A DNA stretch of 64,000 nucleotides from Apostichopus japonicus (taxonomy: Eukaryota; Echinodermata; Holothuroidea; Aspidochirotida; Stichopodidae): the NCBI RefSeq assembly GCF_037975245.1, contig NC_092571.1:11231917-11295916 (forward strand), given 5' to 3'. Shown here one piece after another: positions 8,053 to 49,003 of the stretch. Numbering within the stretch: position 1 is the stretch's first letter; every line of letters begins with the position of its first letter. Both the position numbers and the translations under genes were made by a program. The notes beneath the pieces are model-generated. The model was not told the origin of the DNA. It searched no databases and saw nothing but the letters and a program-made list of their open reading frames with translations.

Positions 8053-8450
8053 GTAGTGGCGGAGCGTCCATATATAGGGTCAGGGGCGGATGCCCCCCCC
8101 CCCGGACGGACTCAAATGGACTGCTGGCGCCCTTTTCAGCTTTTCACTACTTTTCACTTATTCGCGATTATTGACTATTTTATTGCGCTCTCATATGCCT
8201 ATTGACATTTGTCATATTCTGTTGGTGTAATTTTCCGACAAAATGGCGACACAACCTATTTATTCTCCGTTTATCTGCAAATTAACAAGGCCCGAAAAGG
8301 GTCATTTCCTGCAATCTAGGGAGTATCTTTACTCAAAAATTTTCTGTACGCTCCGCGCCAACCTGTGGTGGCGCTCCGCTTAGATAGTGTCGAGAGCGCC
8401 CCTACAGACCATTCCTGCCCCCCTGACCAATACCCCTAGCTCCGCCACAG
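8053..8450. mobile_element. nested GTGGCGGAGC element
   Basis: Ends GTGGCGGAGCG and GCTCCGCCAC are inverted; CCCTTAC occurs on both sides (8046-8052 and 8451-8457). The copies of the outer family at 17982-18666 and 36493-37168 lack this segment and read straight through CCCCTTACTACACTC, so its limits are clear. It carries a hairpin module at 8347-8388, about 60 bp from its right end. Confidence 0.8.
8347..8388 (+). repeat. hairpin module (core only)
   Basis: The core TACGCTCCGCGCCAACC...GGTGGCGCTCCGCTTAGATAGT can fold on GCGCCA/TGGCGC. The upstream half of the usual module is diverged here (AGGGTCATTTCCTGC instead of GAAGTGCCGTTTCC). Confidence 0.8.
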
Positions 8451-8624
8451 CCCTTACTACACTCAAAAACGTCTTTGCGAGTACACTGCGAGTAAGAGCT
8501 ACTCTCTTAAAACACCATCGAATATACAAATTACAATGTTTTTACAGACTTTTTTACGTGCAATCTGAGAAATTGCAGGCTTGAGACCCATATTTTAGGG
8601 CCAGGTATTCGCAGCATAAAACAC

Positions 8625-8722
8625 TCGGGAAGTGCCGTTTCCGGCCATCTGGGGCTTTGAAAAAACCCAAAATTTTATTGTACGCTCCGCGCCAACCGAT
8701 GGTGGCGCTCCGCTTAGATAGT
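8625..8722 (+). repeat. hairpin module
   Basis: Full module: CTCGGGAAGTGCCGTTTCC, then CCATCTGG, an AT-rich AAATTTT step, then the hairpin core ending CGCTTAGATAGT. It lies about 55 bp from the right end of the 7687-8776 element. Confidence 0.85.
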
Positions 8723-8928
8723 CTCCACACATTAGCCCCCCCCCCCCCCAATAATTTTTCCGTTCCGTCGCGCCTGATTGCAAAACACTGCAGAAAAAGC
8801 ACATGGAGAACTTTGGGTTCAATAATTCTTCGCTAATTTATGTATTCATTGCTGTAGAGAAATTTTAGTTCCGCAGTTGCTGGAAGGAAACGAGCGAATT
8901 TCGACCTTCAGCTGATGGCCTACTGGAG

Positions 8929-9086
8929 AGCTCCCAACTGACCTGCATTTCGCGGGTTGGACCCGCATTCTAACAGCCAAACCCGCTGACACGCGCAAGC
9001 GTCCGAAAAACCCGCATTGTAATTGTCAAGTATACATAAAAAATTGCATCAAATTTTGTCCAAGCAACCATCATTTCTTTAGCATT
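8929..9086. mobile_element. left fragment of the AGCTCCCAACT element
   Basis: This matches 22305-22460 closely (AGCTCCCAACTGACC, then a region rich in ACCCGC, ending CATCATTTCTTTAGCATT). The matching right part of the family resumes at 14224, so the 5-kb block between them, which includes the 9190-13970 element, interrupts it. Confidence 0.7.
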
Positions 9087-9189
9087 CATCCCACGCGATT
9101 ATCTGTTTCCTACTCCGCGCGTTACCTCATCGTTTTTACCCTCAAAACAACTCGCGGTTGGAGTCTATCAACACCTGTATATAGGCCTA

Positions 9190-12100
9190 CACTGAAAAAA
9201 TAAACTAGTCAATATTGCCACGGACTAACGTTAAATTAGTTTGTAACGTTAGTCAATGCACACGAACTAGCAAAAATCTTCGTTTCATCGCTGCTTCTTA
9301 GTCAGTTTACACTGACTAAGGAAAATATAATCGCAGCTTAGTCGGTGGCGACGGACTAAGGTATTTTAACCCATGGACTAAGAACGACACGGACACCCGA
9401 TTTACGCCATAATCGTAGCTTAGTCGGTGTCGACGGACTAATGTATTTTGACCCAATTCGATTCACTTTAATTTGGAAACCGAGAGGCAACGGCAGCTTG
9501 CTGGACTTGGCATAGTTTCATACGATCACTCTAAGCAACTTTCAACCGTAAATCACCCAAGAAGGTCTTTAGAAGAATGGAGGTATTAACTGCATCATCG
9601 GCCTACCTGTTATTCCTTTAACTTGAAGGTAAAATTAAAGTTAATTGTTAGGCCACTGGCACTAGTACTGTATTATGGTTAGTGTAACGCTACCGTTGTC
9701 ACGTTGGCGTTTCGCAATACACAAGTGCAATGACAGTGAGTAGCCTATAGGCTTCTACTGGGTACTGCAGTGCATTCTCAACACTAAAGTGTGCATTCTA
9801 AACACCAATTAACAATGTGTTATGTGTGTATTGGGCTAGATTGAACAGAGGCACATAATCTTCTAATTTATTCCCAAACAAATGCTGGAACTATAAGGCT
9901 CAATAGTTTATTTGAAGTCTACACTCATTTGGTAAAGATTTCCTGTAATTTCCCATGTGAATCTAAATGGGTAGGCTTTGTGATATTGAATAAGCAAGGC
10001 TAGACCTTCAAACGTACAGTCACAGTAGGCTGAACAAATTATGTTGGATAGTCAACGGTATTATATGTTGCGAGCAGTCAGGATGCACGCTTCAGTTGTA
10101 TTTAACCTTTTCATTTATCATTTTTTAGTATTTAATTTCCGGTCACACCCAGGAAACAATTGCGACATTCCTTCACGGTCGACTTGCTTACTGTAAGAAG
10201 TATTAACCGTTTTTTTCTCAGGAAAGCTTGATAGTCTGAAGTTATTATAACATGTGCTTTTAGTATACTGCCAAAAGAGTAAGTTGTTGTATTTGTATGG
10301 ATATTTTATGTAGAAGTAACGGAAAATTTAGTATGTTTAGTTTGGTCTAATTGCACGTTTTTTTTTTCTGTCCAATGTAGTGCAGGGTTCACTTGCGCGA
10401 ATTCAAATTATTCTGTTTATGTGTATATGCATCGAATCTTAGATTATGATGTTTTTTTGACATTTATTTGTAATTCAAGCATATCTGTTTAGTAGCAAAG
10501 TTTAAAGGTTAAGATTAATTAGATTTCTCTTTTTGATCCTAGATTGAATGAAACTCATTGACGTAAATAATAGATCAGATGATACAGTTTAACGCAGTTG
10601 CTAAAACTCTGGGTATTCTCTAGTCTTCGCCGGTCCATTATATACTTTAGTACTACTAGTAAGACTAAATCAAAACGACCGAAAGACAAACTTAGTGTAA
10701 CAAAGTACTGATTCTCCTCTAGCCTAGGTCTAAACAGGCTTGTTATGTGAGCAAGCAAAATAACAACTAAAAATGATTAGGCCTATAAATAAGTTGGCTC
10801 AGTGCATTTCTGTTTCTAAAATTTTATATTTTTAAAGATCATAAAAACAAACAAAGATTTAGCCCATGTTTTATTATCTCTGTATTCTGGGCATTTGATT
10901 CTGGTTGCAATGGTGATGACACTCTCGTTCAAATTTTCAGCTTTATACAGTCTGCTTCAAACTTTGGGATTGCTTTTGAGACTATAGTGGAAGCAAATCT
11001 CACATAACTTTGTGGTGACAACTTTATTTAATTTTTTTTTCAAATGATGAATACTTTGCTGTTTCTTTTTTCCAGCAGGAATTGAAAAGCCAAATATCTA
11101 AGTCAAGGGTGAGATTTCCTGTGATGTACGACACCAGTGTGGAGGCAACAACAGAAGAGGAGAACTGTGTTATATATGGCTTAAAGACATGTTTTAAGAT
11201 GATATATTGGTACCCTTCGCAGAACAAAAGAGTTTATCCAAGAGTCCAAAAAGCAAAGGAACAAGTACCATAGAGAAAAAAGATGGAAGAGTGAGTTTAA
11301 CTATTGTACCCAACTGTTTAATGATATTTAAGATACTTTTCATAACCTGTTTTAAAAAAAAACAGTCTAGTATATCATTTACGTGCAAGCTTCATAAGTT
11401 TGGTCAAATTTTCACTGATCTGTAGAGCGGGAGTCCAGAGGGTTTGGTTAGCTGGGAAGGTAACCAAGTGCCTGGTACATCACAATGTTCACAATGCATT
11501 CCTGTATATGAAACCTGACGACTGGCAAACCGACTGTGGTGGGTGTGGCTGGGAGAGCAATTTTAAAGTCACCAAATAGCTAACCTAGATCAGCTTTCTT
11601 GGTAACCACATCAAAGTAAGAACAATGTGTCAGGTATAGCCCCAAGAACAACAAATGGCCATCGCCAGTAATTATTGGTGGTAGGATACCCTTGCCAGTG
11701 ATCTATAATTGACCCCTCATGGCTGACCTAGGTCAGCTCATGAGGTAACCACTTGAAACCTACTGGAAAATGTTGCTTAGGACTTCAGATACAAGGGATG
11801 GGCATTGCCAGTAATTTTTATTGGTGGGGTACCCCTGCCAGTAGACCCCCAATATGCCCATCCCCTCATTGACCTAGGTGCGCTCATGATTTGACCAGTT
11901 GAAACCTACAGGAAAATGATAGGTATCACTTCATATGTAAGGATGGGCATTTCCAGTATTTTATATTGGTGGGCCACCACTGCCAGAGTCCGCCCATCCC
12001 TTACATATAGAATCCTGTCAATAATTTTCCAGTAGTTTTCAACTGGTTAAATCATGAGCTGACCTAGATCAATGAGGGGGGGGGGGGGGGCATTTCGGGG

Positions 12101-13970
12101 GTCTACTGGCAGGGGTACCCCACTAATATAAATTACTGGAAATGCCCATCCCTTACATATAGAGTCCTGCCAATCATTTTACAGTAGTTTTCAACTGGTT
12201 ACCTCATGAGCTAATCTAGGTCAATGGGGGATGGGCATTTTGGGGGTCTACTGGCAGGGTTACCCCACCAATGTAAATGACTGGAAATGCCCATCCCTTA
12301 CATATGAAGTGATAACTATCATTTTCCAGTAATTTTTCAACTGGTTATCTCATGAGCTGACCTAGGTCAATGAAGGAATGGGCATTTTGGGGGTCTACTG
12401 GCAGGGGTACCCCCCCTCAATATAAATTACTGGAATGCCCATCCCTTACATATGAAGTGATACCATTTTCCAGTAGTTTTCAACTGGTTACATCATGAGC
12501 TCATCTAGGTCAATGGGGGATGGGCATTTTGGGGGTCTACTGGCAGGGGTACCCCACCAATAAAAATTACTGGCAATGCCCATCAGTTGTATCTGAAGTC
12601 CTAACCAACATTTTCCAGTAGGTTTCAAGTGGTTACCTCATGAGCTGACCTAGGTCAGCCTTGAGGGGTCAATTATAGATCACTGGCAGGGGTACCCCAC
12701 CACCAATAATTACTGGCAATGGCCATTTGTTGCTCTTGGGGCCATACCTGACACATTGTACTTACTTTGATGTGTTACCATGAAAACTGATCTAGGTTAG
12801 CTATCAGGTGACTTTAAAATTGCTCTCCCAGCCACACCCACCACAGTCGGTTTGCCAGTCGTCAGGTTTCATATACAGGAATGCACTGTGAACATTGTGA
12901 TGTACAAGGCAATTGGTTACCTTCCCAGCTAACCAAACCCTCTGGGATCCCGGTCTATTGGGATCATTATTAACATGATTAACATAATTATTAAGCTTTG
13001 AGAAATAACTTGGTGTTATGCTGTGCAAAGCTAATAATAATTTGGTAAAGCTGCTATTCCTGGCTTATAATTTGAGGGACCTAGATTTAAATGTATACCT
13101 CCCAATATGTTATAAAATTTTAATGTAAATGTATGTTTATGATAATGTGAGTTATCATGTGCTATATCTGTATCTGTGCTTACACGTATATCATATTTTC
13201 TGTTCACAGGTCAATAATGGTGCAGATTTTGGCTTCCTGAAGACAAATGGGAGGCCATTTGTAGTTAAGAGAAACACTCTTTGTTCGTGAAGACTTAACT
13301 GGTGTCGATTTGGGGTACCACATTAAAACGAAAGTCGTGAGGAACTCTTGCCCAAGATTCAACTTTGCATTATTGTGCAGTGCTATACTTTTGCGATTCA
13401 TGTTTGATCCATTAACTTGTCTTAACTTTGTTGAAAAAAAAACAGATTTTCAGATTTTATTTACAGTGATTTCTTCTCTATCTGTCGAAAGTCAGCCTTT
13501 GTAGACATCAGAAGTTTTATCAGAAATAAATACTGCCAACGTACACATTATTTGTGTTTCTTCTGCTCTCTTTTCTTTCAGTGATGCTAGTCAGTAAAAC
13601 TAGTCGGGTTTAATTCTTTCAGTGATTCTAGTCAGTGCAACTAGTCAGTCGATACCGACTCAGAAAGGTTAGTCGGGAGAGGCACCATCCTGACTAATGT
13701 AAAACCTGCTATAAACTAGTCGGTGGCTCATATAAATTAGTCGATAAAGACCGACTAATGTCACCAACTAATGTAACTGACTAATATACATTTACCGACT
13801 ACCAAATTGTTGATCCACTAAGCTGACGGACTAAGATGACCGACTAAGAAATCCAACTGACTAAGGAATGAATTAGTCGGTATAGCAACTGACTAAGGCT
13901 ATGTTAGTCGGGAGAGGCACCAGATGGACTAACGTTATGTTAGTCGGTGAACCAATTTAAGTTTTCAGTG
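9190..13970. mobile_element. 4.8-kb CACTG (CACTA-like) element with GACTAA subterminal repeats
   Basis: The ends read CACTGAAAAAATAAAC and, in complement, CACTGAAAACTTAAAT; TA flanks both sides (9188-9189 and 13971-13972). The outer blocks of about 250-370 bp (9205-9450 and 13585-13950) are packed with GACTAA/TTAGTC words in both orientations, more than 20 in all. CACTG termini, a 2-3 bp target and dense short subterminal repeats are the hallmarks of EnSpm/CACTA transposons. No intact transposase is visible. Exon-like pieces with splice-like borders occur at about 11079-11276 and 13211-13290, and an AATAAA lies near 13525, but I cannot assign them. A foldback insertion sits at 11424-12956. 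Confidence 0.72.
11424..12956. mobile_element. 1.53-kb foldback element with internal repeats
   Basis: The two halves are inverted copies of each other: the left outer arm (CCAGAGGGTTTGGTTAGCTGG near 11435) is the complement of the right arm (to about 12956). Inside, a unit of roughly 140 bp containing CCTAGGTCA, GATGGGCATT, GGGGGTCTACTGGCAGGGG, TACCCCACCAAT and ATTACTGG repeats five to six times, inverting about the centre near 11990-12100. The whole could fold into a long branched hairpin. No coding sequence and no clear TSD. Confidence 0.8.
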
Positions 13971-14223
13971 TACTGCATACTGGGATAATTTCGACGAAGT
14001 TATTATATCATCCTACAGTGTATAAATGCATAATTTATGGCAAAAGAACTTGAGAATTAAATGTTTTTATATGATAACAACAACCAAGTCTGGGTTGGGA
14101 GTGAATTATGAATGATGTTTCTCATTTGTCATGTAATGTTGTTTCATTTTTTGACATTTGGGTTTGACTCTGAACCGATTCTATTGCATGTAGATTCTGA
14201 TTGACCTGAAAAAGAGATACAAT

Positions 14224-14560
14224 AATAGAGTATAAAACCTCCTTTACAGCATCATTTGAACCTCAAATTAGCCTATATTTCTTTTCATTGGGGCGAGCAG
14301 CGAACATTTTCATGCCACGGGAAAGAATGAATTATCACCTACTATTCAATTTATTGATGTTACACACAAAAAAATGCATATTTCTCAGAAAAGTTTGGGT
14401 GACAAAAGCCTTTCTAAGTGCCACCATTTTATATTTAGGCATCACAAGGATTCCAAAAAATTCAAAAGGGGAGGGGACACCCCCTCTCCTTATACCCCTC
14501 CCCCAGGACGGCAATTCGTGGCATGGACCAGCATTTGCCTTCTCAAGAGTTGGGAGGTAT
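14224..14560. mobile_element. right fragment of the AGCTCCCAACT element
   Basis: This matches 22463-22756 plus 23852-23911, the two halves of the second family copy that lie on either side of its own nested insert. It ends CTCAAGAGTTGGGAGGT, the complement of the AGCTCCCAACT start. It confirms that CCCCAGGACGGCAATTC was continuous before the nested insertion at 22757. Confidence 0.7.
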
Positions 14561-15067
14561 GCCTACTGTGACTTGACTGTGAAGTTGCTACAATTTCACT
14601 GTGGCTTCACTTTGCACATGCAAATAAGGTCTGCCCTACCGCAGCTTCACAACGGAGAGCCCTGATTGATTACATACTGTGTGAAGCGTATTCTAGTTTG
14701 TGTTAACATATTGTTTAGTTGTTGTTATTGCTCTGTGGTTTGCTATGTGGTGAGGCGGGCTATGAATCACGCGCTATTAGAAGCGTGTTCAGATGTTTTG
14801 TTTTGAAAGATTCGGTTTGTGGGGCTGGAAGACAGCCAAACTGATTCAAATCGGTTGAGTGCTCATTTGCATGTGCTCATCTGCATACTGGGTTGGCACT
14901 CAACCAATCAAGAGTTGGGTGAGGGGTTAGCTATAAGTTTGGACCAATCAGGTTCAAGGGCAGAGGGTGTGCCCTGTGCATCGCGTCGTAATTTGTTATT
15001 TTCGAATCGGGGGTTTAAGCGTCTCCTACGTATCAGGGAGTTTAAGTTTATCTTCAAAGCCTACAGA
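14561..15067. other. unassigned sequence
   Basis: No supported gene. Open frames here have no splice or domain support. The last 8 bases (15060-15067, CCTACAGA) are the left TSD of the next element. Confidence 0.5.
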
Positions 15068-15432
15068 CAAGGGCGTAGGGGGGCTGGGGGCGCCAGCCCC
15101 CCCCCCAGTGAAAAATGTGGAGGGGCGGAAGTATCATTCCGCCCCCCCCCCCCCACTTCGCAAGTCAGAAAATCCCTTTTTCATTTCCAAATGAGATAAA
15201 AAATCTCATTTGGAGCACCAAATTGCATCTAAGGCCAGGTGAAAATACAAAATTAAGTTTACAAAATGGAGTGGGTGTTGAAGTGTGCTATATTGCACCA
15301 AATTGCATCTGAGGCCACCTGGAAATGCAAAAAATTCCAAAGGGGAGGGGGACACCCCCTCCCCTTAGACCCCTCCCCAGGCCGGCCATCAGTGTTCAGC
15401 CCCCCACTCAAAAGTACCTTCCTACGCCACTG
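15068..15432. mobile_element. 365-bp hAT-like MITE, perfect 8-bp TSD
   Basis: It begins CAAGGGCGTAGGGGGGC and ends GTACCTTCCTACGCCACTG, flanked by CCTACAGA on both sides (15060-15067 and 15433-15440). A second copy, in opposite orientation, lies at 26365-26695 with its own TSD. The inside carries long G/C runs, two GCACCAAATTGCATCT blocks and the family phrase CCCCTCCCCTTAGACCCCTC shared with other elements of the window. Confidence 0.92.
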
Positions 15433-16329
15433 CCTACAGACGTATAACAGAGGGCTCCGTAATTTATATTCATAATCAGCATTTATGCTCGTGTACTTTT
15501 ATCACCCCAAGTTACAGTTATATTCATCATTTTTGTATACCAAGAGTTAATAAAAAGGAACTTAAGTTATAATCAAATATCCGCCTTTGAAGACTATTTA
15601 TGAAGACTTTCATGTTTACGCTCGGTTTAACGTTACTAGTGTAAGGCCCGGCTTACTGTTACCAACTTATACCTGGAACTATAAAATATAAGCCTAACAA
15701 CTGTATTAAAATTGATTCTCCTGCATTTTGGCACTTTTCCGGAAGGATTGATATAGACTCTAATAGGTTATGCCATCTTAATAATATGACATTTTTAAAA
15801 ATCCAAAACGATATTTCTGTAGTCATCACCAGTGGCGTCGCCAAGGGGGGGGGGGGGGCAGGGGGGCACGTGCCCTCCTGGAAAACCTAGTGCCCCCCTG
15901 AGTGCCCCCCCATCTGAGATTTGGGTTGGAAAAATATATATATATATTTTGTTATATTTAACTCCCATCATCTGAGTTGGTTTTTCATAAGGACAAAGCA
16001 GCACAGTAATTCGTATTTTCTTCAAATGAGCTGCGAAAAATTGAAAAAAGTTTTATCCTTGAACGTCGGGTATCGAAGTCGTGACCCACGCCATCACAAC
16101 ATGTGTCGATATTTACATTGAATGTGTCAGTGCTCACGCCATACCAGCGGATATACACGTCCGCTTCGCGAGCTAGCCTACATGACTGTGAGAAGGGAGG
16201 GTACTGCAATATGTTGCCTTGGTCTAAGGTTGGCAGGTTAGGAGTTGACGAAATGTGAGAATGTGAGGGTCCGCAGGCACCATACTTGACTATATTTGTG
16301 GACCCATATATTAACCCTGTTGTTGTAGA

Positions 16330-17542
16330 GAAGCCACTAAATACTAACCCGCGTAGCGGTTCGGTTCATCGGTAAGGATCCCGAGCGAGAATGATCTCAC
16401 CTGACGTCACAGTCTTGCATAACTACGTAGATGCACATGTTGTACATTTCACGTGTATAGTGCGGGTACGAGCTCGTGTAACACGTACGAATTGCCGGGC
16501 CAAGTCCCGCTCGCGATTAAAAGTAAAAGATGGGAAAATAGGAGACAAATATCCAAACGTTTCACGGTTTATTCTTGACATTTTAAGTTAACAAATGTAT
16601 ATAAGAAAGCTGCCATAAAGTACTGTTGTATTTATCTTTATATCTCAAGTATAGCAGGTCTCACAAGTTATTACACAGAGTTAACTAACCTCCAAGACCT
16701 GGTTGTGTACATATATCATTTTAAAAACTGTGAGTACCGTTTAAAACCCATATATCTATCTTCATCTCAAGTAACAGGTCTCACAAGTTATTACATAGAG
16801 TCAACTAACCTCCTAGACCTGGTTATGTACAAATATCAAATTTAAAAGCTGCAAAATTCACTTCAAACGTTTAGATCTATCTTTATCTCAAGTAACAGGT
16901 CTCACAAGTTATTACATAGAGTCAACTAACCTCCTAGACCTGGTTGTGTACAAATATCAAATTTAAACGCTGCAAAATTCACTTCGAACGTTTAGATCTA
17001 TCTTCATCTCAAGTAACAGGTCTCACAAGTTATTACATAGAGTCAACTAACCTCCTAGACCTGGTTGTGTACAAATATCAAATTTAAAAGCTGCAAAATT
17101 CACTTCAAACGTTTAGATCTATCTTTAATTCAAATAACAGGTCTCACAAGTTATTACATAGAGTCAACTAACCTCCAAGACCTGGTTGTGTACATATATC
17201 ATTTTAAAAACTGCAAGTACCGTTTAAAACCGCTATTATATCTATCTTTATCTCGTAGCAGGCCTCACAAGTTGTTACATAGAGTCAACTAACCTCCAAG
17301 ACCTGGTTATTTACAAATATCATTTAAAAACTACAAGTACCGTTTCGAACCGCTATTATATCTATCTCTGTCTCGAGTAGCAGGCCTCACAAGTTATTAC
17401 ATAGAGTCAACTAACTTCTGAGACCTGGGCAAAATAACGTAATTCGGAACCGAGAGCGCCGAGCACAGTTGCACCCGAAACCGAGTTCCGAGGGCACTCG
17501 AAATGGTCCGACCCGCTGTAGGGGTTAGTATTTAGTGGCTTC
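16330..17542. mobile_element. 1.2-kb TIR element carrying a 121-bp tandem array
   Basis: It has perfect 21-bp terminal inverted repeats starting GAAGCCACTAAATACTAAC (16330-16350; complement at 17522-17542). It is absent from the sister composite at 36378-38091, where the target reads straight through near 37600. The flanks share GTTGT-like sequence but no exact target duplication. No coding capacity was seen; the superfamily is undetermined. Confidence 0.82.
16632..17430. repeat. seven tandem units of about 121 bp
   Basis: The word CAGGTCTCACAAGTTATTAC (or CAGGCCTCAC) starts at 16655, 16775, 16896, 17017, 17138, 17259 and 17381, giving a steady period of 120-122 bp. The units also share GAGTCAACTAACCTCC and AGACCTGGTT. 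The array lies wholly inside the TIR element. Confidence 0.92.
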
Positions 17543-17981: not shown

Positions 17982-18666
17982 CAATGGCGGCGGAACCGGG
18001 GGGCTTGGGGGGGCTCAGCCCCCAAATGAAAAAGTTGAGGGGGCAAATGCATGATAAGCCCCCCATATATTTACCAAGGCTCCGAAACGTGCATGCATCT
18101 GCCCATTTTTCAATGCGTACTTGTCGATCTGTCTGATGCACACGTATACTAAATAGGTGTAATAATTTTAGTAAATGCTGGGGGGACCCTCGGACCGTCC
18201 CCTGGCTATAGACCACATTGTCACCCCAACCGCGTCTTCACGCCCCGTGAAAAGTGGAAGCAGTGAGTGTGAGTACCGGTAAGCGCAACACAACTTCGTC
18301 TTAGGCCAATGATTTGCTTCATTTCAGCCAGTTCTCCAACATCCCCTTACTACACTCAAAAACGTCTTTGAGAGTACACTACGAGTAATAGCTACTCTCT
18401 TAAAACACCATCGAATATACAAATTACAATGTTTTTACAGACTTTTACGTGCAATCTGAGAAATTGAAGGCTTGAGACCCATATTTTAGGGCTAGGTATT
18501 CGCAGCATAAAACACTCGGGAAGTGCTGTTTCCGACCATCTGGGGGTTTGAAAAACCCAAAATTTTATTGTACGCTCCGCGCCAACCGATGGTGGCGCTC
18601 CGCTTAGATAGTCTCTACACATTAGCCCCCCCCCCTCCCAATAATTTCTCTGTTCCGCCGCGTCTG
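17982..18666. mobile_element. CAATGGCGGCGG hAT-like element (short form)
   Basis: Left end CAATGGCGGCGGAACCGG, right end CCGCCGCGTCTG; GAGGGGG is present on both sides. It matches 36493-37168 and lacks the nested element present in the 7687 and 22757 copies, so it represents the ancestral form. A hairpin module lies near its right end. Confidence 0.82.
18516..18612 (+). repeat. hairpin module
   Basis: Full module with the TACGCTCCGCGCCAACC / GGTGGCGCTCCGC core, ending 54 bp from the right end of the 17982-18666 element. Confidence 0.85.
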
Positions 18667-19582: not shown

Positions 19583-19678
19583 GGGAAGTGTCATTTCCAG
19601 CGATCTGGGAGGCATTTTCGGCCAAAATTTTTCTTGTACGCTTCGCGCCAACTCATGGTGGCGCTTCGCTTAGATAGT
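19583..19678 (+). repeat. hairpin module (diverged)
   Basis: The module is present with compensated changes in the stem arms (TACGCTTCGCGCCAACTC ... GGTGGCGCTTCGCTTAGATAGT): both arms carry TTCG where most copies have TCCG. It lies inside the 18986-20954 element, far from an obvious end. Confidence 0.8.
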
Positions 19679-20816: not shown

Positions 20817-20912
20817 CCGAGAAGTGCCATTTCCGGTGATCTGGGGGTATCAAAACCAGAAATTTTCTTGTACGCTCCGCGCCAACCGATGGTGGCGCTC
20901 CGCTTAGATAGT
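20817..20912 (+). repeat. hairpin module
   Basis: Full module whose end lies 42 bp from the right terminus of the 18986-20954 element. Confidence 0.85.
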
Positions 20913-21838: not shown

Positions 21839-23120
21839 GTGCAAGGTATTAACACTGCAGCTGCCACTCCACTTAACATATAGACCTCATACAACATTAT
21901 CTGCTACAGCTGGTTTAGGCTTAGTCTAGGCTATTGGTCATTACTAGAGAGAGCCAACGTACGGAAAGCGGAGAAGAGGATGGCAGTAATGCTATGTCAA
22001 GTGAAAATACCCTGGACTGGGTGTGGTGTATTTTGTGTTTCAGCAAAACTGTAAGTTACTGTACGTAAATACTGAACTTGTATATACAGTATGTATCTGA
22101 AGAATTATTGGATGGGAGCAATGCAGTCACTGGCGGATCCAAGGGGGGGGGCCAAGGGGGGCCATGCCCCCCCCCCAAAGGTGAGCCAAAAAGTGTTTCC
22201 GAACATCCGCTGAATCATATGATTGGAAATTAAAAAAATCGAGAGGAATAGCAGTGGTAGACTAGTCTTAACCTTTTCGTTTTCTGGTTTAAAATTAAAT
22301 GCAGAGCTCCCAACTGACCCGCAATTCGCGGGAATTAGACCCGCATTCTAACACCCAAACCCGCTGACCCGCACAAGCGTCCGAAAAAACCGCATTGTAA
22401 TTGTCAAGTATACATAAAGAAATTGGCATCAAATTTTGACTTAGCAACCATCATTTCTTTAGCATTTAGCATAATAGAGTATATAACCTCCTTTACAGCA
22501 TCATTTGAACCTCAAATTAGCCTATAATTCTTTTCATTGTGGCGAGCAGCGAACATTTTCATGCCACGGGAAAGAATGAATTATCACCTACTATTCAATT
22601 TATTGATGTTACACACACAAAAATGCATATTTCTCAGAAAATTTTGGGTGACAAAGCCTTTCTAAGTGCCACCATTTTACATGTAGGCATCACCAGGATT
22701 CCAAAAAAAATCAAAAGGGGAGGGGGACACCCCCTCCCCTTATACCCCTCCCCCAGCAATGGCGGCGGAACCGGGGGGGGCTTGGGGGGCTCAACCCCCC
22801 AATGAAAAAGTTGAGGGGCAAATGCATGATAAGCCCCCAAAATATTTACCAAGGCTCCGAAACGTGCATCTGCCCATTTTTCAATGCATACTTGTCGATC
22901 TGTCCGATGCACACGTATACTATATAGGTGTAATAATTTTAGTAACTGCTGGGGGACCCTCGGCCCGTCCCCTGGCTATAGACCACATTGTCACCCCAAC
23001 CGCGTCTTCACGCCCCGTGAAAAGTGGAAGCAGTGAGTGTGAGTACCGGTAAGCGTAACACAACTTCGTCTTAGGCCAATGACTTGCCTCATTTCAGCCA
23101 GTTCTCCAACATCCCCTTAC

Positions 23121-23528
23121 TTGGCGGCGGAGCGTATATATACACAGTCAGGGGGCGAATACCCCCCCCCCCCCCGGACGGACTCAAATGGACTGCTGGC
23201 GCCCTTTTCAGCTTTTCACTACTTTTTACTTATTCGCGATTATTGACTCTTTTATTGCGCTCTCATATATACCTATTGACATTTGTCATATTCTGTTGGT
23301 GTAATTTTCCGACAAAATGGCGACGACACCTATTTATTCTCCGTTTATCTGCAAATTAGCAAGGCCCGGAAAGGGTCATTTCCTGCAATCTAAGGAGTAT
23401 CTTTATCCAAAATTTTTCTGTACGCTCCGCGCCAACCTGTGGTGGCGCTCCGCTTAGATAGTGTTGAAAGCGCCCCTACAGACCATTCTTGCCCCCCCCC
23501 CCGACCAATACCCCAAGCTCCGCCACTG
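23121..23528. mobile_element. nested GGCGGAGC element, second copy
   Basis: Matches 8053-8450 in sequence and in insertion point (CCCTTAC on both sides). The right end reads AGCTCCGCCACTG, showing the original CAGTGGCGGAGCT terminus. Confidence 0.82.
23421..23462 (+). repeat. hairpin module (core only)
   Basis: Same diverged form as at 8347-8388, at the same place in the nested element. Confidence 0.8.
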
Positions 23529-23700
23529 CCCTTACTACACTCAAAAACGTCTTCGCGAGTACACTACGAGTAATAGCTACTCTCTTAAAGCACCATCGAA
23601 TATACAAAATTACAATGTTTTTACAGACTTTTACGTGCAATCTGAGAAATTGCAGACTTGAGACCCATATTTTAGGGCTAGGTATTCGCAGCATAAAACA

Positions 23701-23799
23701 CTCGGGAAGTGCCGTTTCCGGCCATCTGGAGGTTTGAAAAAACCCAAAATTTTCTTGTACGCTCCGCGCCAACCAATGGTGGCGCTCCGCTTAGATAGT
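23701..23799 (+). repeat. hairpin module
   Basis: Full module, 52 bp from the right terminus of the 22757-23851 element. Confidence 0.85.
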
Positions 23800-24645
23800 C
23801 TCCATACATTAGCCCCCCCCCCCCAATAATATTTCCGTTCCGCCGCACCTGTCCCCCAGGACGGCAATTCGTGGCATGAACCAGCATTTGCCTTCTCAAG
23901 AGTTGGGAGCTATGTAATTGTATGAGTATGAGGATTTACAGTTTAACACAATTTTGCAGTTACAGGCTGGTTGTAAGAAATTTATAACCTATGAGAAATA
24001 AAATTTCTTGAGAAAGATGATCCCAACTTTGTTTTATAAATATCTTAGAAAATTACACCTGGGAACATTTTTTTAGAAGTAAATTAACATCACCATTGTA
24101 CACTTTTGTCGCACCAAATTGCATCTGAGGGCATTCGGCAAAAGAAAAGTTTACAAAGGGGAGGGGGCCCCCTCCCCTTACACCCCTTCCCCATATCACT
24201 CTAATGCCACTTTGGCCCCTCCCAAACAAAGGTCCTGGATCCGCCAGTGAATGCAGTTATGTACAGAAATAGAAGCCAGATGGAATTTGAAGGCAAAGGG
24301 TAAGATTTAGATGAAATCTGAATATGTCACCTAAGTTTGACTCCATCAAGGTTTACAGTATTACAGAGCACAGGTTACTGTGCTTTAGGAACACAGTCAC
24401 TAGCTGTCTTGCACTGTTTCTGCAACTGATATGTTTATTGTCGCTGCCACATCACTGCATTGTTGAGGAACTCATTAAGCAGGTTTAACATCAGGCTACC
24501 AATCATGCAGTCAGTGCAGGTAGATGTCTGTTTCAGCCCCCTTGTATAACATTTGAACTGTTCTGCACATATGGGTCCTAAAAATTAAAATTCCAAATTG
24601 TAGACTTCCACATCTGAAATTTTACCTTAGGTGTTCTGTTGCATG

Positions 24646-32620: not shown

Positions 32621-33901
32621 ATATTAGGCCATCAGCTGAAGGTCGAAATTCGCTTGTTTCGTTCCAGCAACTGGGGGTCTAAAATTTCTCTACAGCATTG
32701 AATACATAAATTAACTAAGATTAATGATTAAAAAGTTCTCCATGTACTTTCCTGCAGTTTCTTTGCAATTCCGCTCGAAAGATCGAACTATTTTTTTATT
32801 GCGTATGTTAAGAAACCTGCCGTTCTACGTTCAAAAGTTGTGCGCTAGTGAGATATCTGTACCATGTGATATGAATTGTCCAATGAGCCATGAGTTCTGT
32901 GTGCAATCTTTGTAGAAAACAACAAACATGGCGGCTCCCACGGGTGCTAGTCAGTCTCCGACACACGGAAATCTACAGTGCTAAGTGCACATTGAATCTG
33001 TAAAATTTGAAGCAGTCAAGGCACTGACGAATAAACGATGGACTAAAGTTACTTCCTGCGCTAAAGATTGGCTTAATCTCTTCGGCGGAGACAGTTATAT
33101 CGCCGTACTACTGATTACTACATGGCCTACTACGATCAAGCGTGTGTTCAACAGCATAGTATGATGGGGTTCCACGATAAGTTTTACAGGCGGTTCATTG
33201 ATAGCAAGCACATTGCTGCAAGAAAACGGACAGTACCAGAGGAGACCCCATATGAAATGCATTACTCGGTGTTGCAAACGGGTGCAGGACAAGCTGCAGC
33301 AGGCAGAGAATTTCGATGGAGGTAAGCCTAAGCATACTACATGACTCTACTTATACTTCTGTGGCATAGTGGAAGTGTTAAGAGAAGTTGCATAATGCAA
33401 GATCAGTAGCTCTTGAGGGATAGAGTCCAAGTCAAAGGGCACAGTGTTGGACCTGAACATAATATAATTAGTGGCATGGTCATCTGATTTGTTTTGTTAT
33501 AAGGTGGTAGGAATGGAAATTTGTTTCAAATTCTCCATCTGGGGCACTGGCCTAAGTGTTAAATACAGGCTTCATAGTTTTCTTACTGTGGCCCTTTATT
33601 TAAATGATAGAGATATTATATTAGTTAGAAAAAAAAAGACCTGTACCACTCTCTATGTTGCAGAAACTAGATACAATTCTTGACAAGGAAGGCATACAGA
33701 TCTTGAAAGGTAAAGTACTGTCTTCAATGTGTGGTTCATTGAGTGTTCAGGGGTGGATTTAGGACTTTTGGAATATGGGGGTCCTCCCCCAAGAAAAATT
33801 AAAAAATTCTCTAAACGCTTTGAGATGCAATATCAGGTTAATCTTTCCATTGAAATTATTAAAGTAATTTGCAACATATTTCTAGCTGAATTGTAATTTT
33901 A

Positions 33902-36492: not shown

Positions 36493-37168
36493 CAGGTGCG
36501 GCGGAACGGGAAAATATTGGGTAGGGGGCTAATGTGTAGAGACTATCTAAGCGGAGCGCCACCATCGGTTGGCGCTGAGCGTACAAGAAAATTTTGGGTT
36601 TTTCAAACCCCCAGATGGCCGGAAACGGCACTTCCCGAGTGTTTTATGCTGCGAATACCTAGCCCTAAAATATGGGTCTCAAGCCTGCAATTTCTCAGAT
36701 TGCACGTAAAAGTCTGTAAACACATTGTAATTTGTATATTCAATGGTGTTTTAAGAGAGTAGCTATTACTCGTAGTGCACTCTCAAAGACGTTTTTGAGT
36801 GTAGTAAGGGGATGTTGGAGAACTGGCTGAAATGAAGCAAATCATTGGCCTAAGACGAAGTTGTGTTGCGCTTACCGGTACTCACACTCACTGCTTCCAC
36901 TTTTCACGGGGCGTGAAGACGCGGTTGGGGTGACAATGTGGTCTATAGCCAGGGGACGGTCCGAGGGTCCCCCACCATTTACTAAAATCATTACACCTAT
37001 ATAGTATACGTGTGCATCGGACAGATCGACAAGTACGCATTGAAAAATGGGCAGATGCACGCTTCGGAGCCTTGGTAAATATTGGGGGGCTTATCATGCA
37101 TTTTCCCCCTCAACTTTTTCATTGGGGGGAGGGCTGAGCCCCCAAGCCCCCCGGTTCCGCCGCCACTG
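36493..37168. mobile_element. CAGGTGCGGCGG hAT-like element (short form), inverted
   Basis: Ends CAGGTGCGGCGGAACGGG and GGTTCCGCCGCCACTG. It occupies the same place in this composite as 17982-18666 in the other, flanked by imperfect CCCCCTC. Confidence 0.82.
36542..36640 (-). repeat. hairpin module
   Basis: Full module in inverse orientation, 49 bp inside the 36493 terminus of its element. Confidence 0.85.
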
Positions 37169-39480: not shown

Positions 39481-39489
39481 AGAGACCTA

Positions 39490-40994: not shown

Positions 40995-41029
40995 CATGGT
41001 AGAATGAATACCGTACACTAAATTACACA

Positions 41030-41067: not shown

Positions 41068-41069
41068 AC

Positions 41070-42920
41070 TCGCACACATGCATGCATACTTTACTGAGGC
41101 TATATTGAATATCGCCATCCGGAAACTGACCAATTTATGTACATATGCAAACTTAGTATGGTACGTACTTGACGTCTCCTATGTGAACAATTTTGTTCTT
41201 AAAAAAAAATGACTAACTTATCTAAAGACAGGCAAATACGGCTCATGACTCCAGACTGGAGGTTCATATTGCGTTTATCTTGAATTTTTAGCATTCCATT
41301 TTCACTTACATATCAGCAACTAGAGATTGATGAACGAGAGATTACCGTCTGTAGAATTTATACTCGGCGAACCCAAATTAAAGAGTAATTAACCGTTTCG
41401 TAAAAACTGACAAGTTTGTTGGCCCAAACATTTATACATGCAAGCTACATCTTTATCTTTATTCATATTTTAAATGAAACCATGTCTTTCACGTGACGTC
41501 AGACAATAACAAACCGCCTGTTTCGCTCATTTTAAAGGTACATTGATGTACTCGGCCTTTATACTTTAGTCTATTCGAGTAAGCCTACTCGGTCTTTTCG
41601 GGGGGGAAAAAATACGATTTTGTTATCTCAGACAACTGTGCCTACAAAACACACCTTTCTCATTTAAGTTGTAAAGTCAAACAATCAGATCATCGCCATC
41701 AGACGATAATGAATGTTCCTGTTTCGCTCGTAATACGTACATTGATGTACCATACAACGAGTTGTAGCTGAACAAAGCATACTATGACGTGTATTGATAC
41801 AGTATTGTATATCTGACCTTGCACTGTGATGGATAAAAGATAGTCCGGATTTCCTTGTCAATTTGTACTGCATCGAACTGTATGGAAGCCGGTAAATCTT
41901 GCAAAATACTAAACAGGTTTTCATTTTTTTTTTATTATCGTGGACTTTTTATAATTATTATCATCGTGTAAACTTAGTATATTATGTTTGTGTTTGTTTG
42001 TTGTATATTATGATATAAATTTATATTATTACCATATAAGATCAAATATATCATCCATCAGGTTGGCCCTTGTGGTGTTCCATACAAATTCAGTTGATGT
42101 TCATCACATTGATCAACCGTAGTGGAATATAATACAATACACCAAATACATTTGTATGTACATGACGTTATGATGCTGTATGTTGCACTGTGCTTTCAAG
42201 CGTGAGAATTATAAACCAAAAGGGCTCCTTTGTAAGTATGAAAGATAGGCTAGGCTATGTAAGTACAGTCTAAGATATATAAATCAACTAAAGCGAAATT
42301 TATCGTCTAGGAAACAGCTACTATTCTATACCAACAGTCTAGTCAATCTGTGAAAAAAAAAATGTTTTGGCGGTATATAATAGACAAATTCCTTGTGAGA
42401 AACAGATTGCAAATATATCATCATCGAGGTTGCAGAACCGAGCCAAAATGGCGGCTACTGCCTGCGCTACATGGCTGACGAAAGTAGTAGGAATCGGTTT
42501 CACCGACACAAATAATGATAAATGACATAATTTCCAGAAATGATCCTTATTTCCCGTCATGATGCTAGGTAATAATTTTAGTGAAAGAGTTTCCGCATGC
42601 CATTCACATGGTTTCTTGTCTTGTCAGTTAGTAAAATAATTATCATCAGGCTATCGGTTCCAATTATAGGCAGGGTCGTCTCTAGAGGGGGGTGTGGGGG
42701 TGTCTCACCCCAATCTCGTTAAAACTGACGATATTTGGAAAATTTGAGTCCGACAGTCGGAATTTCCGACTGTCGCACTTTAATTTACCAAGGCCTATTC
42801 ATATATTCACGTTCTTGTGAATGACCTAAAAAGTTCGGTCAAAATTGACATAATCAGTTATAATAATTTACCACGTTTTCCTTGCCATTTGAGAAATTGT
42901 ACCTCGCGATTCTTATACTC
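41070..42920. other. unassigned sequence
   Basis: AT-rich, with two related blocks sharing GTTTCGCTC and TACATTGATGTAC (about 41520 and 41720). No supported gene. GGCAGGGTCGTCTCTAG near 42671 may be the end of an unpaired hAT-like remnant. Confidence 0.4.
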
Positions 42921-43003
42921 CACCACAGCGACTTAGCCAGGAATTTGAAGGGGGGAGGGAGCACTTTATGCGATTGATATGGATTTTCAAAGTTGTTGGC
43001 ACG

Positions 43004-43103
43004 ACTATCTGAGCGGAGCGCCACCATCGGTTGGCGCGGAGCGTACAAGAAATTTTTTGGTTTCACAAACCCCCCAGATGGCCGGAAACGGCCCTTCCCG
43101 AGT
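43004..43103 (-). repeat. hairpin module
   Basis: Full module in inverse orientation. A TIR-like CACAGCGACTTAGCCAGG followed by a G run lies about 75-85 bp to its left (42924-42941), so it keeps the usual distance from an element end, but the other end of that element was not found. Confidence 0.8.
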
Positions 43104-43350
43104 GTTCATTATGGTTTCCTGGCCTCTTGGTAACTTGAGACACCTCATTCAATATCACTTTTAAACCCCCAAAAAACAAACGAGTTAAAATAGTACGTAA
43201 TTCAATACTACATAATGTATTTAAAATTAGCAAGGTATTCATGTACAGATCAGTAGTCTTACTTTTCAACTTCTGATACTTGTAGATACAAAGATAGGCC
43301 AGAAATGACTTTGATACAACAATAGCAAGTAATTGTCTTTGATACAACTG

Positions 43351-44924
43351 TTATTATTATTATTATTATTATTATTAACCTTTAAAAGGGTGACTCGGTT
43401 AGCCAAAGCTAATCTTCCCCGAGGCCCTAAAATAAAATCAATATAAAAAGAATAATATTATAAAATAATAAACAAAGAGTAAGACTATTAAACATACAAA
43501 TATACAACAGTAAATCACAAAACTGTAAAAATGAGTATAGAACATAAAAGCGTAATGAGATGATTAAGACTTGAAAAATTCATTGACTAAACGTTTAAAA
43601 ATAGCTAAAGATTTGGCATACTTGCATTCAGCTGGCAAACTATTCCATTCTTTGGCAGCTATGAAGGAAAATCTACGCTTGTGATATTCCGTTTTACCAT
43701 CTTTCAGGTATAAGTTACTTTGGGTCGTGGATCTCAAATTGTGATTATGAATTTCGTGTGTAAAGTTGAATAACTGGGTTAGATAATTTGGGGAGAGGCC
43801 ATTCATGGTCTTGTACATCATGATCAATCGTCGTATACGTATTTGCGTATCGACAGGGTGCCACTTTAGCATTTTAAATAATTCTGTCGAGCTTTCATAT
43901 CTTCCCGAGTTCGTAATAATACGCGCTGCTGCGTTTTGCATATGTAACAACTTTTTTAAATCATTTGCTCCACACGTACCCCAGACTATACTACAATAAT
44001 CTAGAATGGGTCGTACATACCCATTATAGAAGATAATTTTCGTATTTAAATCAATATATGGTTGTATGCGTCTCAGTAAGGCAAGGCGATTTGAGACTGT
44101 TTTACAAACGTTGTCAACCTGAATATGCTAGGATAAATTGTTATCAATTTTTACACCTAATAGTTCTTCATATTTGACAGTCTTGAGAATTTTGCCCCGA
44201 GTGTCACAGAAAGAGTATTTGCATTGTCAGGTAATGAAGCCAGTCTCTGACCAGATCCCATCAATAATACCTTCGTTTTAGTGGTGTTGATTGCCATTTT
44301 ATTTCGGTCACACCAGGCACTAACTTTTTCCATGTCTCTTTGCAATTTGTTATTCAAGTTAATGGTAGATGTATCACTGGCATAAAATGTTGTGTCGTCA
44401 GCATACATATCCGCTGAACAATATTCCAAAGTGAGATCGATATCATTAATATAAATTAAGAACAGAAGTGGACCAAGAACGCTTCCCTGGGGTACACCAC
44501 ATGCAATTCGTCTTGAACTCGATAAAACACCATTTAAGTATGTGCATTGACTTCTATTAACTAAATAGGATTTGAACCAATTAATCGCTTTACTCGATAC
44601 ACCATATAATACGTAGTTTCGTTACCATAATCTCGTGGTTTACCAAATCGAATGCCTTACTGAGGTCTAAGAAAACAGTTCCCAAAATATACCCCTTATC
44701 AATAGATTCCATCCACTGATCCACAACCTTCAATAGCGCCGTTTCGCATGAATGCTTTTCCCTGAAACCCGACTGTGTATTACGTAAAAGGTCAAACTTA
44801 TTCAAATGCTTACTGAGGGCTAGGTGGACATGTTTTTCAATTATTTTTGAGAGAATTGGTAAAATTGCAATCGGCCTGTAGTTCGATAAATCATGGCGGG
44901 ATTCCGTTTTAAAACTCTGTAGCT
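43351..44924 (-). mobile_element. 5'-truncated jockey/CR1-like LINE
   Basis: Minus-strand reverse transcriptase remains end in a 3' tail of TAA units (TTATTATT on the plus strand, 43351-43377), as in LINEs with microsatellite tails. The 5' part (endonuclease, ORF1) is missing: homology begins inside the reverse transcriptase near 44920. The clade is from memory of the motif layout. Confidence 0.82.
43564..44923 (-). pseudogene. LINE reverse transcriptase, frameshifted
   Basis: Read on the minus strand from 44923: SNYRPIAILPILSKIIEKH, then GFREKHSCETALLKV and VFLDLSKAFDLVNH (fingers/palm motifs), a one-base frameshift near 44620, then RRIACGVPQGSVLGPLLF and the catalytic YADDT motif (about 44389-44405), a second break near 44150, then the thumb and C-terminal block with LDYCSIVWG, QNAAARIIT, YKTMNGLSPNYL, KRRFSFIAAKEWNSLP. 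The stop is at 43564. At least two frame changes make it inactive. Confidence 0.85.
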
Positions 44925-46110
44925 AGTAAATGTTTAAGTTAGCCTAATAAGAGAAGGCGAGAGCAATCCGACGATTGCCATCTGATGCAAATTTCTCAAC
45001 TGTTTTCTCAACTGAAATATCATCTGCGTAAACGGGTTTTTAACTATAGTGGAAAAACTGACAAGATCGGATCCTAGTTTTTTTCGGCGGGTAGAGTGTT
45101 GAATGAAACGGCACGCGATAGAAATGACAGCCTAGATGACAGAAGAATAGGTCACCTAATTTAGCCATAGTCTTGCTACGTTCATTTCAATAGTTTTTCC
45201 TGTCTTAGACTCGTCCATTAAGCCTATGGATTTGAATTATGGGTGTTTTTAAAAAGAAGATAACTTGGACAAGAAAAGTATAGGCCCGGGCCTAGTGCTA
45301 CATACTGACTACGCCCCTGATCATATGATATCATACTATCAGCAGATTTTGTTTCCTGTTTGAATTCTTTTACATGTTCTTTTAAATAATATATCAGAAA
45401 GACAAACATAGTGCTCTTTTACATTTTTTCCAGTAGGATGATTCTTGTTTATTGTCCAATGTCTGGACTTTGATACATTTGACGAACATAACTGATGGAC
45501 AATATCAACTTTCATATTTTGTAATATAGCCAGATATGCAGTGGCCAAAAAACAAATATCGTTATCGCAGTGTATTAGCAGTGTAATAATTATATATAGG
45601 AAGTGCGTATCACGTACGATTGCTAGCTTAGCTTCATAACATGCTGTTCTGGTGCAACAACAATTAGGACGAATCATAGAAAGGATGAGAACGAACGTTG
45701 TCGACGTTGTTGTGCATACGGTTCGTGACATTCCATAGAGTGCGGTTAGGTAGGCAATATGTATTTTATTACGCAGTGGCCAACTGTAGGCATGTAATAG
45801 GCTAAATTAGGCTAATTGCATCTGCCAAACAAAGTAAGTGGTTGAATCAGTAGGCGTGAATGTTACTACGATTACAATCGAGTTAACGGAGCTGACGAGT
45901 ATTCAAGATCAAAAGAGCACTGACAAAATACCATGCTAAAAAAAGTACAGTTTAAAAAAAAAAACTCGGCACTGAAAGGGGGAGCAGTCGCTCCCCCTGC
46001 TCCCCCCCCCCCGGCTACGTCCTTGCTCCACCATACAACACTTCGTATGATTTTGAATACTCAAAGCAAATGCCTCATAGAACTAGTGTACAACGTTCGC
46101 CAGCTTCAAT
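44925..46110. other. unassigned sequence
   Basis: No supported gene. Isolated hAT-like ends (GACTACGCCCCTG at about 45319; CCCCGGCTACGTCCTTG near 46010-46026) have no partner that I can find. Confidence 0.4.
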
Positions 46111-46254
46111 TCGGTTTATTTATGTACTAAGTTTGAACACCCAATACGGAAGCTTAAAAGTGCCATTAACATAAGAAAAACTTTGCCCCATAAGTTGACA
46201 TTTTTCAGTAATTTGTTTAGATAACAAGATAAAATCTTATCAAAAATCAGAAAA

Positions 46255-46500
46255 ATGTTGGATTTCTCAGTTGCCTTAACTGAGCAATTGAAACAATTTT
46301 CTGCAAAATGTTTAAGTGACATCTTATCATGTCTCGTCAATTGGACATTTTGCTGCAAAATGTTCAATTGTTAACTTCATTCCAACTGAGCAATTGAAAC
46401 ATTTTCTGCAAAATATTTAATTGACAACTTATCGTATCTCGTCAACTCAGCATTTTTCTGCAAACTGTTTAATTGCTCACTTCATTCCAAATGCTCAGTT
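46255..46500. repeat. degenerate tandem repeat of about 107 bp
   Basis: ACTGAGCAATTGAAAC starts at 46278 and again at 46385; blocks CTTATC-TGTCTCGTCAA and TTCATTCCAA recur with it. The sequence then turns back on itself (TTCCAAATGCTCAGTTGGAA). Non-coding. Confidence 0.65.
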
Positions 46501-46807
46501 GGAATGAAGTGAAAAATTGAACATTTTTGCATGTGAGTGATAAATAGCCCGCCACCCACCCCCCCCCCCCAAGAAAATAATATTAAGCGCGCTAGGAAAA
46601 AGCACTGTATTTTTGGGTAATTCACTATGTCGTCGAATATAATTTGTTGAAAAATCTTTTCCCCTTTGTTACATTAACATAGCTTTTGTAGTCAGTAGTC
46701 TATGTAGCCTATCAAGCAGATAACTTATACTCGGTTGCTTACTTGCTTAACCAGAGTGATTAATAACTTTGTGAAGTTTGTAACAGTTGATAATTATGTG
46801 TAAAAGT

Positions 46808-46862
46808 AAGTTGGCCTGACGTTTCGATCCTAGCAGGATCTTCTTCAAAGGCTAAATGACAA
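46808..46862 (-). ncRNA. hammerhead-like motif of a Penelope-like element (degraded)
   Basis: On the minus strand the order is TTGAAGA (core CUGANGA with the first C changed), stem II GATCC-TGCTA-GGATC, then GAAA and CGTC (46842-46847, 46826-46840, 46822-46825). This matches the layout of the hammerhead ribozymes embedded in Penelope-like retroelements. The changed first core base predicts little or no activity. No GIY-YIG or reverse transcriptase domain was found beside it. Confidence 0.5.
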
Positions 46863-46869
46863 GTAACAG

Positions 46870-47811
46870 TAACAGAAGGGACAAAAACATGCACAGAATA
46901 CAGAAAGGTGAACACAAAGAGATAGATGTAAGGGGATTAGTAGACAAGGGATGGAGAGACGAAAGAAAGAAACCAGCAGGGTAAGAGGAGAGGTGGGAGA
47001 TAAACAGTGGAGGGACACAGAGAGGATTAAGGGAAGGGGGTATAGGAAATAATATATTTCCTACTCCCTTTCACATAGCACTTCAAACAGTTTTAGTTTT
47101 TTTCTCATATGGGTTTAGCACTTTCTTTCCTTAAAGTCTCAATGTGTGTTTGTCAAATTTTAACTTCGATTTTTTCCAGCTTACTGCCCTAAAAGCTCAA
47201 TGAAAATAGCACCGTTCTATACAATTCTCATATTAATAATCATTATTTGTATTGAGTTATATGTCGTTAAACATTTTGAGCTGAATAAAATTCGCCAGAT
47301 TTTTTAACGAGTCCGTAGATTCTACATAATTTACTCAAAATTTACAAGCTCCGCAACAACGTTTCGTTTACGACCCTTAGGCATAGGACTTACGAGTGGA
47401 CGATACGAGTATATCTAGGTTACATTTGTGTTATGAGCATGATGATATGGGCGGTCGCAGTGATTTTACGGTAAATCGTTCGTACCATACTTAGGGCAAC
47501 AGAAAATAAATTTCTTTCTTTCGATTGCGACAGCTTTTCTCCATTAAACCCACCTGGTCAGATTTCATTTAGAATATGAAAAATTTAATCTGCGTCGGAA
47601 GTTTGTTTCCGCAATTCAGCAGTAAACAAATATGCAGACTTTAACTATTGGGTAATATGTAATTTCTTCAGTTATAGGGTAAAACATAAAGTTGCTTGAG
47701 ATGTAGCAGTTCCATTCCTAGTGTTGTTTTTTAATGGTTGCTGCTTGGTATTTCTGTTAATATAATAGTTAACTTACAATCCGAGATCAAGAGAATATAA
47801 TAACACGCTTA
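46870..47811. other. unassigned sequence
   Basis: Begins with purine-rich sequence likely to belong to the Penelope-like remnant, then AT-rich DNA without a supported gene. Confidence 0.4.
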
Positions 47812-48155
47812 AAATGCAGGGGCGTATCCAGGGGGGGGGCGCAAGAGGCGCGCGCCCCCCCTATTGGCCGTCACCAAAAAAAAAAAAAAAAAAAAATTGA
47901 TGACCTTTATGTGAGATGTCGGTGATCGCTCAACCCCCCCCCCCCCCTCCCGTATGCTTTATTTTTTGTTTGCCAAAAAAAGGTTCTGGCGAAGTTCGGC
48001 GGCATAATAGTTTTAGAAACATAGATGGTAATTGTGTTTGTATTATCACTATAAACACTAAATGACATGTCAGCCATACTAAATTGTGCATTTTGTGTCC
48101 ATATTTACTGGAAATGTTGCTTATTATTAAGGTCGAAAAATGGATCACATATGGC

Positions 48156-49003
48156 CATGGGCGGCGATCCTGGGTGGAGGGGGGATATATCCCCCATGAA
48201 AATGGGTGGAGGGGATGTAATGCACCATATCCCCCCCCCCCCCACCAAATGCCAGGGATAAGAATATATTCATGCCTACATTTATGCATCTTCGTTAATG
48301 TACGGCTCTTTTTTAGCTTCATTTCTCGCCTACCATAAACGCAGTGCGATCTTTTCAAATAAAGCGTCTTTATAAAGCAAGAATAGTTGACTGTAGGCTT
48401 CATTGGCCCTATAACAACAAAATGTATTATTGCGCCCACGGTATTGATATAGTACATATATGCACCCTCATAGTATTCATATAGGCCCTATAGTAGGCCT
48501 ACACACGTACATGTTCCCTCGAACAGCTGAGAATCTCATGTTACCAGGGTAATGCTTAATACACGTTTCACCTGGATGCCCTAGCAATCGGTACCTAGGA
48601 ATGTAACTATGTGTAATTGTGTATTGCATGTGTATAGGCCTATAATAGCCTGCATGAGGCCATTTTCTTCATCGAATAATATAAAAGAGCTCTCGAACAT
48701 TCTAACGTTGCGCCTGAAACAAGATTGACAGGGGCAATTTTCCCAAAATAACACCCGAAATTAAAAAAAAAAAGTATTTTGGATCCTGATTATGAGATAT
48801 TTCGGACATGACATCCCTATTTTAAAGTTGGGTATATGCCGCTTGGAAACCTCGGGAAGTGCCGTTTCCGGCCATCTAGAGGGTTTGTTAATCCCCAAAT
48901 TTTCTTGTACGCTTCGCGCCAACTCATGGTGGCGCTACGCTTAGATAGTCAACAAGGTCATATCCCCCCCCCCCCCACTCGGAAGTACGGATCGCCGCCC
49001 ATG
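48156..49003. mobile_element. nested CATGGGCGGCGATCC element
   Basis: Perfect 15-bp terminal inverted repeats CATGGGCGGCGATCC and GGATCGCCGCCCATG. No TSD could be read. A long minus-strand open frame across it is G/C-run artefact, not a gene. Confidence 0.75.
48851..48949 (+). repeat. hairpin module
   Basis: Full module with TTCG-type left arm, 54 bp from the right terminus of the 48156-49003 element. Confidence 0.85.

Follow-up and report, generated by a model that had tools for sequence, protein, structure and literature searches.

Hermes requires subterminal sites, one pair of which is quasi-palindromic, that are bound by the Hermes zinc fingers (PMC10368747). These subterminal repeats (STRs), the targets of BED zinc fingers, lie within the first ~150 bp of the element, beyond the terminal inverted repeat (TIR), they are end-asymmetric and some of them are quasi-palindromic (PMC10368747), and in these respects they resemble the block described here, which we call module I. 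However, the Hermes STRs are short repeated motifs with an AAGT core, found at both ends of one element, whereas module I, a putative binding site, is one long near-invariant dyad present at one end of elements from many families, whose transposases are strongly diverged. By analogy, the best reading of module I is that its role is comparable to that of the Hermes subterminal repeats (PMC10368747). A likeness also exists to the SINE domains V, CORE and Deu, of which V occurs in a MER6 MITE (PMC6887750): like module I, they measure ~100-120 bp, are common to different families, are exchanged, and show a conservation that is unexplained. The SINE domains sit in RNA-copied SINEs, whereas module I occurs in cut-and-paste DNA transposons, at a constant distance from the end and together with transposase genes, and its host elements have TIRs and 8-bp target-site duplications (TSDs), which sets it apart from the SINE conserved domains. 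Finally, hAT-derived MITEs are, here as elsewhere, elements of ~350-1250 bp with TIRs, 8-bp TSDs and a high copy number; MITE families usually share their tips with a master, whereas the module-I families share a subterminal block and differ in their tips. We found no description of a shared hAT module of this kind in the open-access literature.

The earlier note had read ten copies of a hairpin module in the window (the whole 64-kb stretch of DNA that was analysed), and all ten (10/10) are present at the positions claimed. The shared stretch measures ~97 bp in most pairs, with conservation highest over the final ~45 bp. The copies of module I are the following:

8292-8388, plus strand: B family (core 8347-8388)
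8627-8722, plus strand: A family
18517-18612, plus strand: A family
19583-19678, plus strand: C family; terminus ..CACTCCTG at ~19731
20818-20912, plus strand: D family; terminus ..GGATACGCGCCTG at ~20954
23367-23462, plus strand: B family, the same B-in-A insertion as at 8292
23704-23799, plus strand: A family
36542-36637, minus strand: A family
43004-43100, minus strand: E/K family
48853-48949, plus strand: F family; terminus ..GGATCGCCGCCCATG at ~49003

A self-comparison of the window showed that the copies read at 8625, 18516, 23701 and 36542 all belong to one element, A, present in four copies, and that those at 8347 and 23421 represent one B insertion within A, at a single site and with the TSD CCCTTAC[GT]. 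The ten copies reduce to six insertion contexts, namely A, B, C (19583), D (20817), E/K (43004) and F (48851). The several transposon families that had been proposed as hosts do differ in their tips, but they are all hAT-like, with CANNGGCG-type (CA..GGCG-type) tips and 8-bp TSDs, and they provide six contexts rather than ten independent ones. The host elements resolved in the window are:

7687-8776, plus strand: hAT element A containing B; tips CAGTGGCGGCGGAAC / CAGGCGCGACGGAAC; empty site at 32763-32769
8054-8450, plus strand: hAT MITE B, lying within A; tips (T/C)AGTGGCGGAGC; TSD CCCTTAC[GT]
17982-18666, plus strand: hAT element A without B; GAGGGGGC-like TSD
22757-23851, plus strand: hAT element A containing B; TSD TCCCCCAG; empty site at 14499-14506
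23122-23528, plus strand: hAT MITE B, lying within A; TSD CCCTTACT
36493-37168, minus strand: hAT element A without B
42925-46024 (approximate limits), minus strand: hAT element E/K; TSD TGGTGGAG; tips CAAGGACGTAGCC / CAGCGACTTAGCC; reverse-transcriptase sequence interrupts it at 43564-44621

In the A copies that lack B, the insertion site of B is intact (CCCCTTACTACAC), and the empty sites of two A insertions, both present in the window (14499-14506 and 32763-32769), fit 8-bp duplications. Most resolved elements are flanked by perfect or 7/8 TSDs and have short TIRs with CAGNGGCG-like tips (CAGTGGCGG, CATGGGCGG, CATAGGCGT, CAGGCGCG and others), some of which vary. The interruption of the E/K element (43564-44621, minus strand) consists of reverse-transcriptase-like open frames with the motif YADDT, followed by a TAA microsatellite, and is probably a non-LTR insertion. 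Two other origins of module I were considered. The reverse strand is open for ~30 codons in several families (LSKRSATIGWRGAYKK...), and a coding origin was dropped because the variable letters fall at codon positions 2 and 3 and the lengths depend on the family. A tRNA-related origin was rejected, as the window contains no tRNA gene.

We then examined the abundance and placement of the module in the 671.6-Mb genome. The 35-base core motif CGCTNCGCGCCAACNNNTGGTGGCGCTNCGCTTAG is matched exactly at 9,140 sites (4,593 + 4,547), against none in the reversed control, a count far beyond chance, and freeing the 12 stem letters of the motif gave 11,437 matches genome-wide. The same motif had 0 matches in the viral collection and 0 in the prokaryotic one. 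In the sampled loci, where families A and B dominate, a matching terminal repeat with an 8-bp TSD was sought, and all resolved tips were hAT-like. Such a terminus lay 3' of the module in 76 of 114 sampled modules, at a distance of 41-78 bp (median 60), while the mirrored search of the same 114 modules returned 4 matches: three poor, chance-like pairs and one chimera (L006), in which an element with a CAAGGGCGGCGG tip surrounds a K module. The fixed place and orientation relative to one terminus, as originally proposed, is thereby upheld. Less than 300 kb of the genome was read as sequence, and each family sequence was put together manually from a small number of copies.

Within hAT elements, the place and orientation of module I are fixed, and at several loci it lies downstream of the transposase. 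Of 29 hAT transposase matches, 1.2-1.5 kb downstream were read for the module, which was found 3' of the transposase in six hAT families, in each case on the transposase strand: A, M (L082), H (L102), O (L103), N (L099 and L112) and G' (L086 and L101). L080 is the same element as L082, with D inserted. Two A loci, L071 and L085, are 96% alike up to GTTCCGCCGCGCCTG and unrelated beyond it, which defines the A tip. In a seventh family, F, locus L100 combines an F-type interior with the left part of the module, the right half being cut off by a rearrangement. The A transposase matches DUF4371, and matches to the hAT dimerisation domain (PF05699), which mark the A C-terminus, led to A, M, G', O and others. 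The A, F and H MITEs correspond to transposase-bearing elements in the same genome; for B, C, D, I, J and K, no autonomous copy was found. The near-identity and long open frames of several hAT transposase copies (G000:C1 and C7, with 804-aa frames, at L069 and L091, and the pair L080/L082, 99.85% identical over 676 bp) suggest recent activity.

Not all hAT elements with similar tips carry the module. L097 and L070 have nothing that resembles it, and L069, L072 and L074/L098 are hATs without module I that carry another common block, module II. This second 3'-subterminal block (CATCTGAG..AAAGGGGAGGGGGACACCCCCTCCCCTTAGACCCCTCCCCCAGGACGGCGAT) also points at hAT tips, its strict 33-base motif has 590 exact matches, and in module II, as in module I, CTTAGA closes a hairpin. 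Module II was located as follows:

14484, 15359, 18687, 22734, 32544 and 49059 in the window, plus strand: module II
26446 in the window, minus strand: module II
Loci L069, L072, L074, L078 and L098: module II

The similarity of the modules is unrelated to that of the transposases (Mantel r -0.38, p 0.85 for a positive relation): the A and F modules are 0.89 alike with transposases 32% identical, and the N and H modules 0.72 alike with transposases 57% identical. In the transposase tree, A groups with L074 (module II) and L097 (no module), and a single clade of module-I transposases was rejected, if marginally (p-AU 0.03). The limits of similarity between families were also compared. D and I are 82% identical over ~450 bp, up to the 3' edge of the module, after which their tips differ, the I tip being similar to the F tip. 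The A-J, A-K, G-C and D-A similarities stop at this same 3' edge, and G' is composed of a G body and G module joined to a CAGTGGCGGAGAT tip. We rejected the interpretation of G' as a plain G MITE inserted behind the transposase stop codon, since its far end has the other terminus and the element is a chimera. Crossovers or template switches within the shared module would explain the D/I, A-J, A-K, G-C, D-A and G' patterns. Hence, it is well supported by these comparisons that families swap neighbouring sequence by recombination or template switching inside the module, so that bodies and tips reassort. Module exchange between families, one of the explanations offered by the earlier note, is thus supported by the D/I and G'/G terminus switches, the Mantel correlation and the one-clade test.

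Conservation of the module is concentrated in its core. The transposases of module-I families are 30-57% identical, and the identity of the module between families is 0.54-0.88 in the first half and 0.82-1.00 in the last 45 columns, 27 of which are invariant among 15 families. The most variable core columns (67, 78 and 90) coincide with the dyad centre and one helical turn on each side, at a spacing of 11-12 bp, and spacing this regular occurs in 1.4% of random triples in a post hoc test. In family O, both core arms have changed symmetrically. This suggests that the core is under selection on its sequence, as a candidate dyad recognition site. A protein on double-stranded DNA would leave such a pattern, although the same three positions are also unpaired in the predicted hairpin, so that the pattern does not settle the form in which the core may be read. 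A common binding site appears to be the likeliest reason for the conservation of the module sequence. The zinc fingers of the module-I transposases are 28-41% identical and are no closer to each other than to those of module-II families; binding through one shared transposase zinc finger is thus unsupported by zinc-finger conservation, and this divergence leans towards a host factor as the putative binder. No module-like half-sites were found in the 5' 220 bp.

We consider there to be about an even chance that module I is the 3' subterminal recognition block of DUF4371-type hATs, selected for its sequence, exchanged between families and read as a dyad in double-stranded DNA. According to this proposal, module I would be a subterminal block at the transposase-distal (3') end of these hATs and of related short non-autonomous elements. 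That its ~45-bp core is maintained by sequence selection while transposases and flanks diverge is well supported. The core, TACGCTnCGCGCCAAC-ynr-TGGTGGCGCTnCGCTTAGAT, would act as a double-stranded, imperfect two-fold recognition site ~60 bp from the tip and would help the transposition complex to assemble at that end, its reader being either the transposase or a host protein common to many families. A crossover inside the module would always leave a complete site, correctly placed, and the fixed position of the module may be due to this. A tentative extension of this proposal is that module I is an exchangeable end-signal: a single host protein, or a permissive transposase surface, would read it at one end of many unlike hATs, module II would do the same job elsewhere, and the cassettes would be gained or swapped by recombination.

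Selection on the fold, as the earlier note had suggested, would mean that the module works as a folded nucleic acid, be it an RNA structure formed towards the 3' end of the transposase transcript or a hairpin extruded from the DNA. The module does lie in sense orientation 3' of the transposase, and the consensus structure, with an outer helix ATCTRG/CTTAGAT, a variable middle hairpin and a GC-rich hairpin, has 98.7% of cells paired, the outer helix being retained with G-U variants. The middle hairpin is strong with unlike sequences in A, B and G (z -3.7 to -4.3), but it is absent in M, N and P, and the whole module folds as a single strand barely better than shuffled sequences (z -0.7 to -1.8 for six copies; mean z only -1.1 for 13 families). 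The proposed test for compensatory changes found both-sided change in only 2 of 20 pairs, a level that 3 of 500 shuffles reached, and the one clear compensatory change is from C-G to G-C in a stem of family O. The core stems are almost invariant, beyond what a fold requires, and the unpaired core letters are invariant too. The change from TCCG to TTCG at 19583-19678, cited as a paired change of both stem arms, is not a base pair: the letters lie in two direct CGCTNCGC repeats that face each other in an unpaired internal loop, and covariation between them was discarded, as they are unlinked in most families. In addition, MITEs without a gene retain the module, although the families were picked through the module, which makes this a biased test, and Rfam gave no match at gathering score in the window, with only chance-level matches at two loci by E-value. 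Selection on the fold is thus weakly supported by the O change and the middle hairpins of some families, and we regard a folded form as an unlikely explanation.

Passive hitch-hiking, in which the module descends from one ancestral hAT and, having no function, is alike between families through recent recombination or gene conversion between its thousands of copies, seems rather unlikely. Recombination within the module has clearly occurred, crossovers in a shared block keep the module automatically, and nested copies amplify jointly. However, homogenisation would leave neither a set of 45 columns in which three positions are saturated and 27 are invariant nor a much greater divergence in the first half of the module than in the core; this pattern of conserved and variable positions fits better with sequence selection than with homogenisation. 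Module I could also be an independently mobile, SINE-like short element inserted into several hAT families, for which the SINE conserved domain V within the MER6 DNA transposon (PMC6887750) is a precedent. This is highly improbable, since the borders of the module show no ends, TSD or A-tail, the 5' limits of similarity vary between pairs while place and orientation are fixed relative to the tips, and no module copy with its own TSD outside a hAT was recognised in the sample.

If module I is a recognition block as proposed, DNA transposons would possess a conserved domain of their own, comparable to the unexplained SINE domains and located at a site where end assembly is directly testable. The exchanges indicate that hAT end regions may assort independently of the transposase, which bears on the origin of non-autonomous families and on the way in which they find a master, and would matter for classification by terminal sequence.

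Nested hATs all appear to be oriented as their host (B in A, B and C with D, C2 in I, D in M, and A in module-II elements), in the window at 7687-8776, 17982-18666 and 22757-23851 and at loci L011, L015, L028, L080, L086 and L113; these are about ten cases judged by eye, many from amplified composites, and the apparent bias is unproven. The window also contains tandem arrays at 11423-12957, 16641-17428, 53654-54215 and 59602-60158, with periods of ~145, 121, 61 and 150/26 bp, respectively, and the first of these has an inverted arm (11423-11986 against 12957-12398, 92%). At ~1120 in L024, a module-like copy carries ACGCTACGCGCCA-ACCA.TGGCGCGTAGCGT, an inverted repeat that is perfect where the dyad is usually imperfect.
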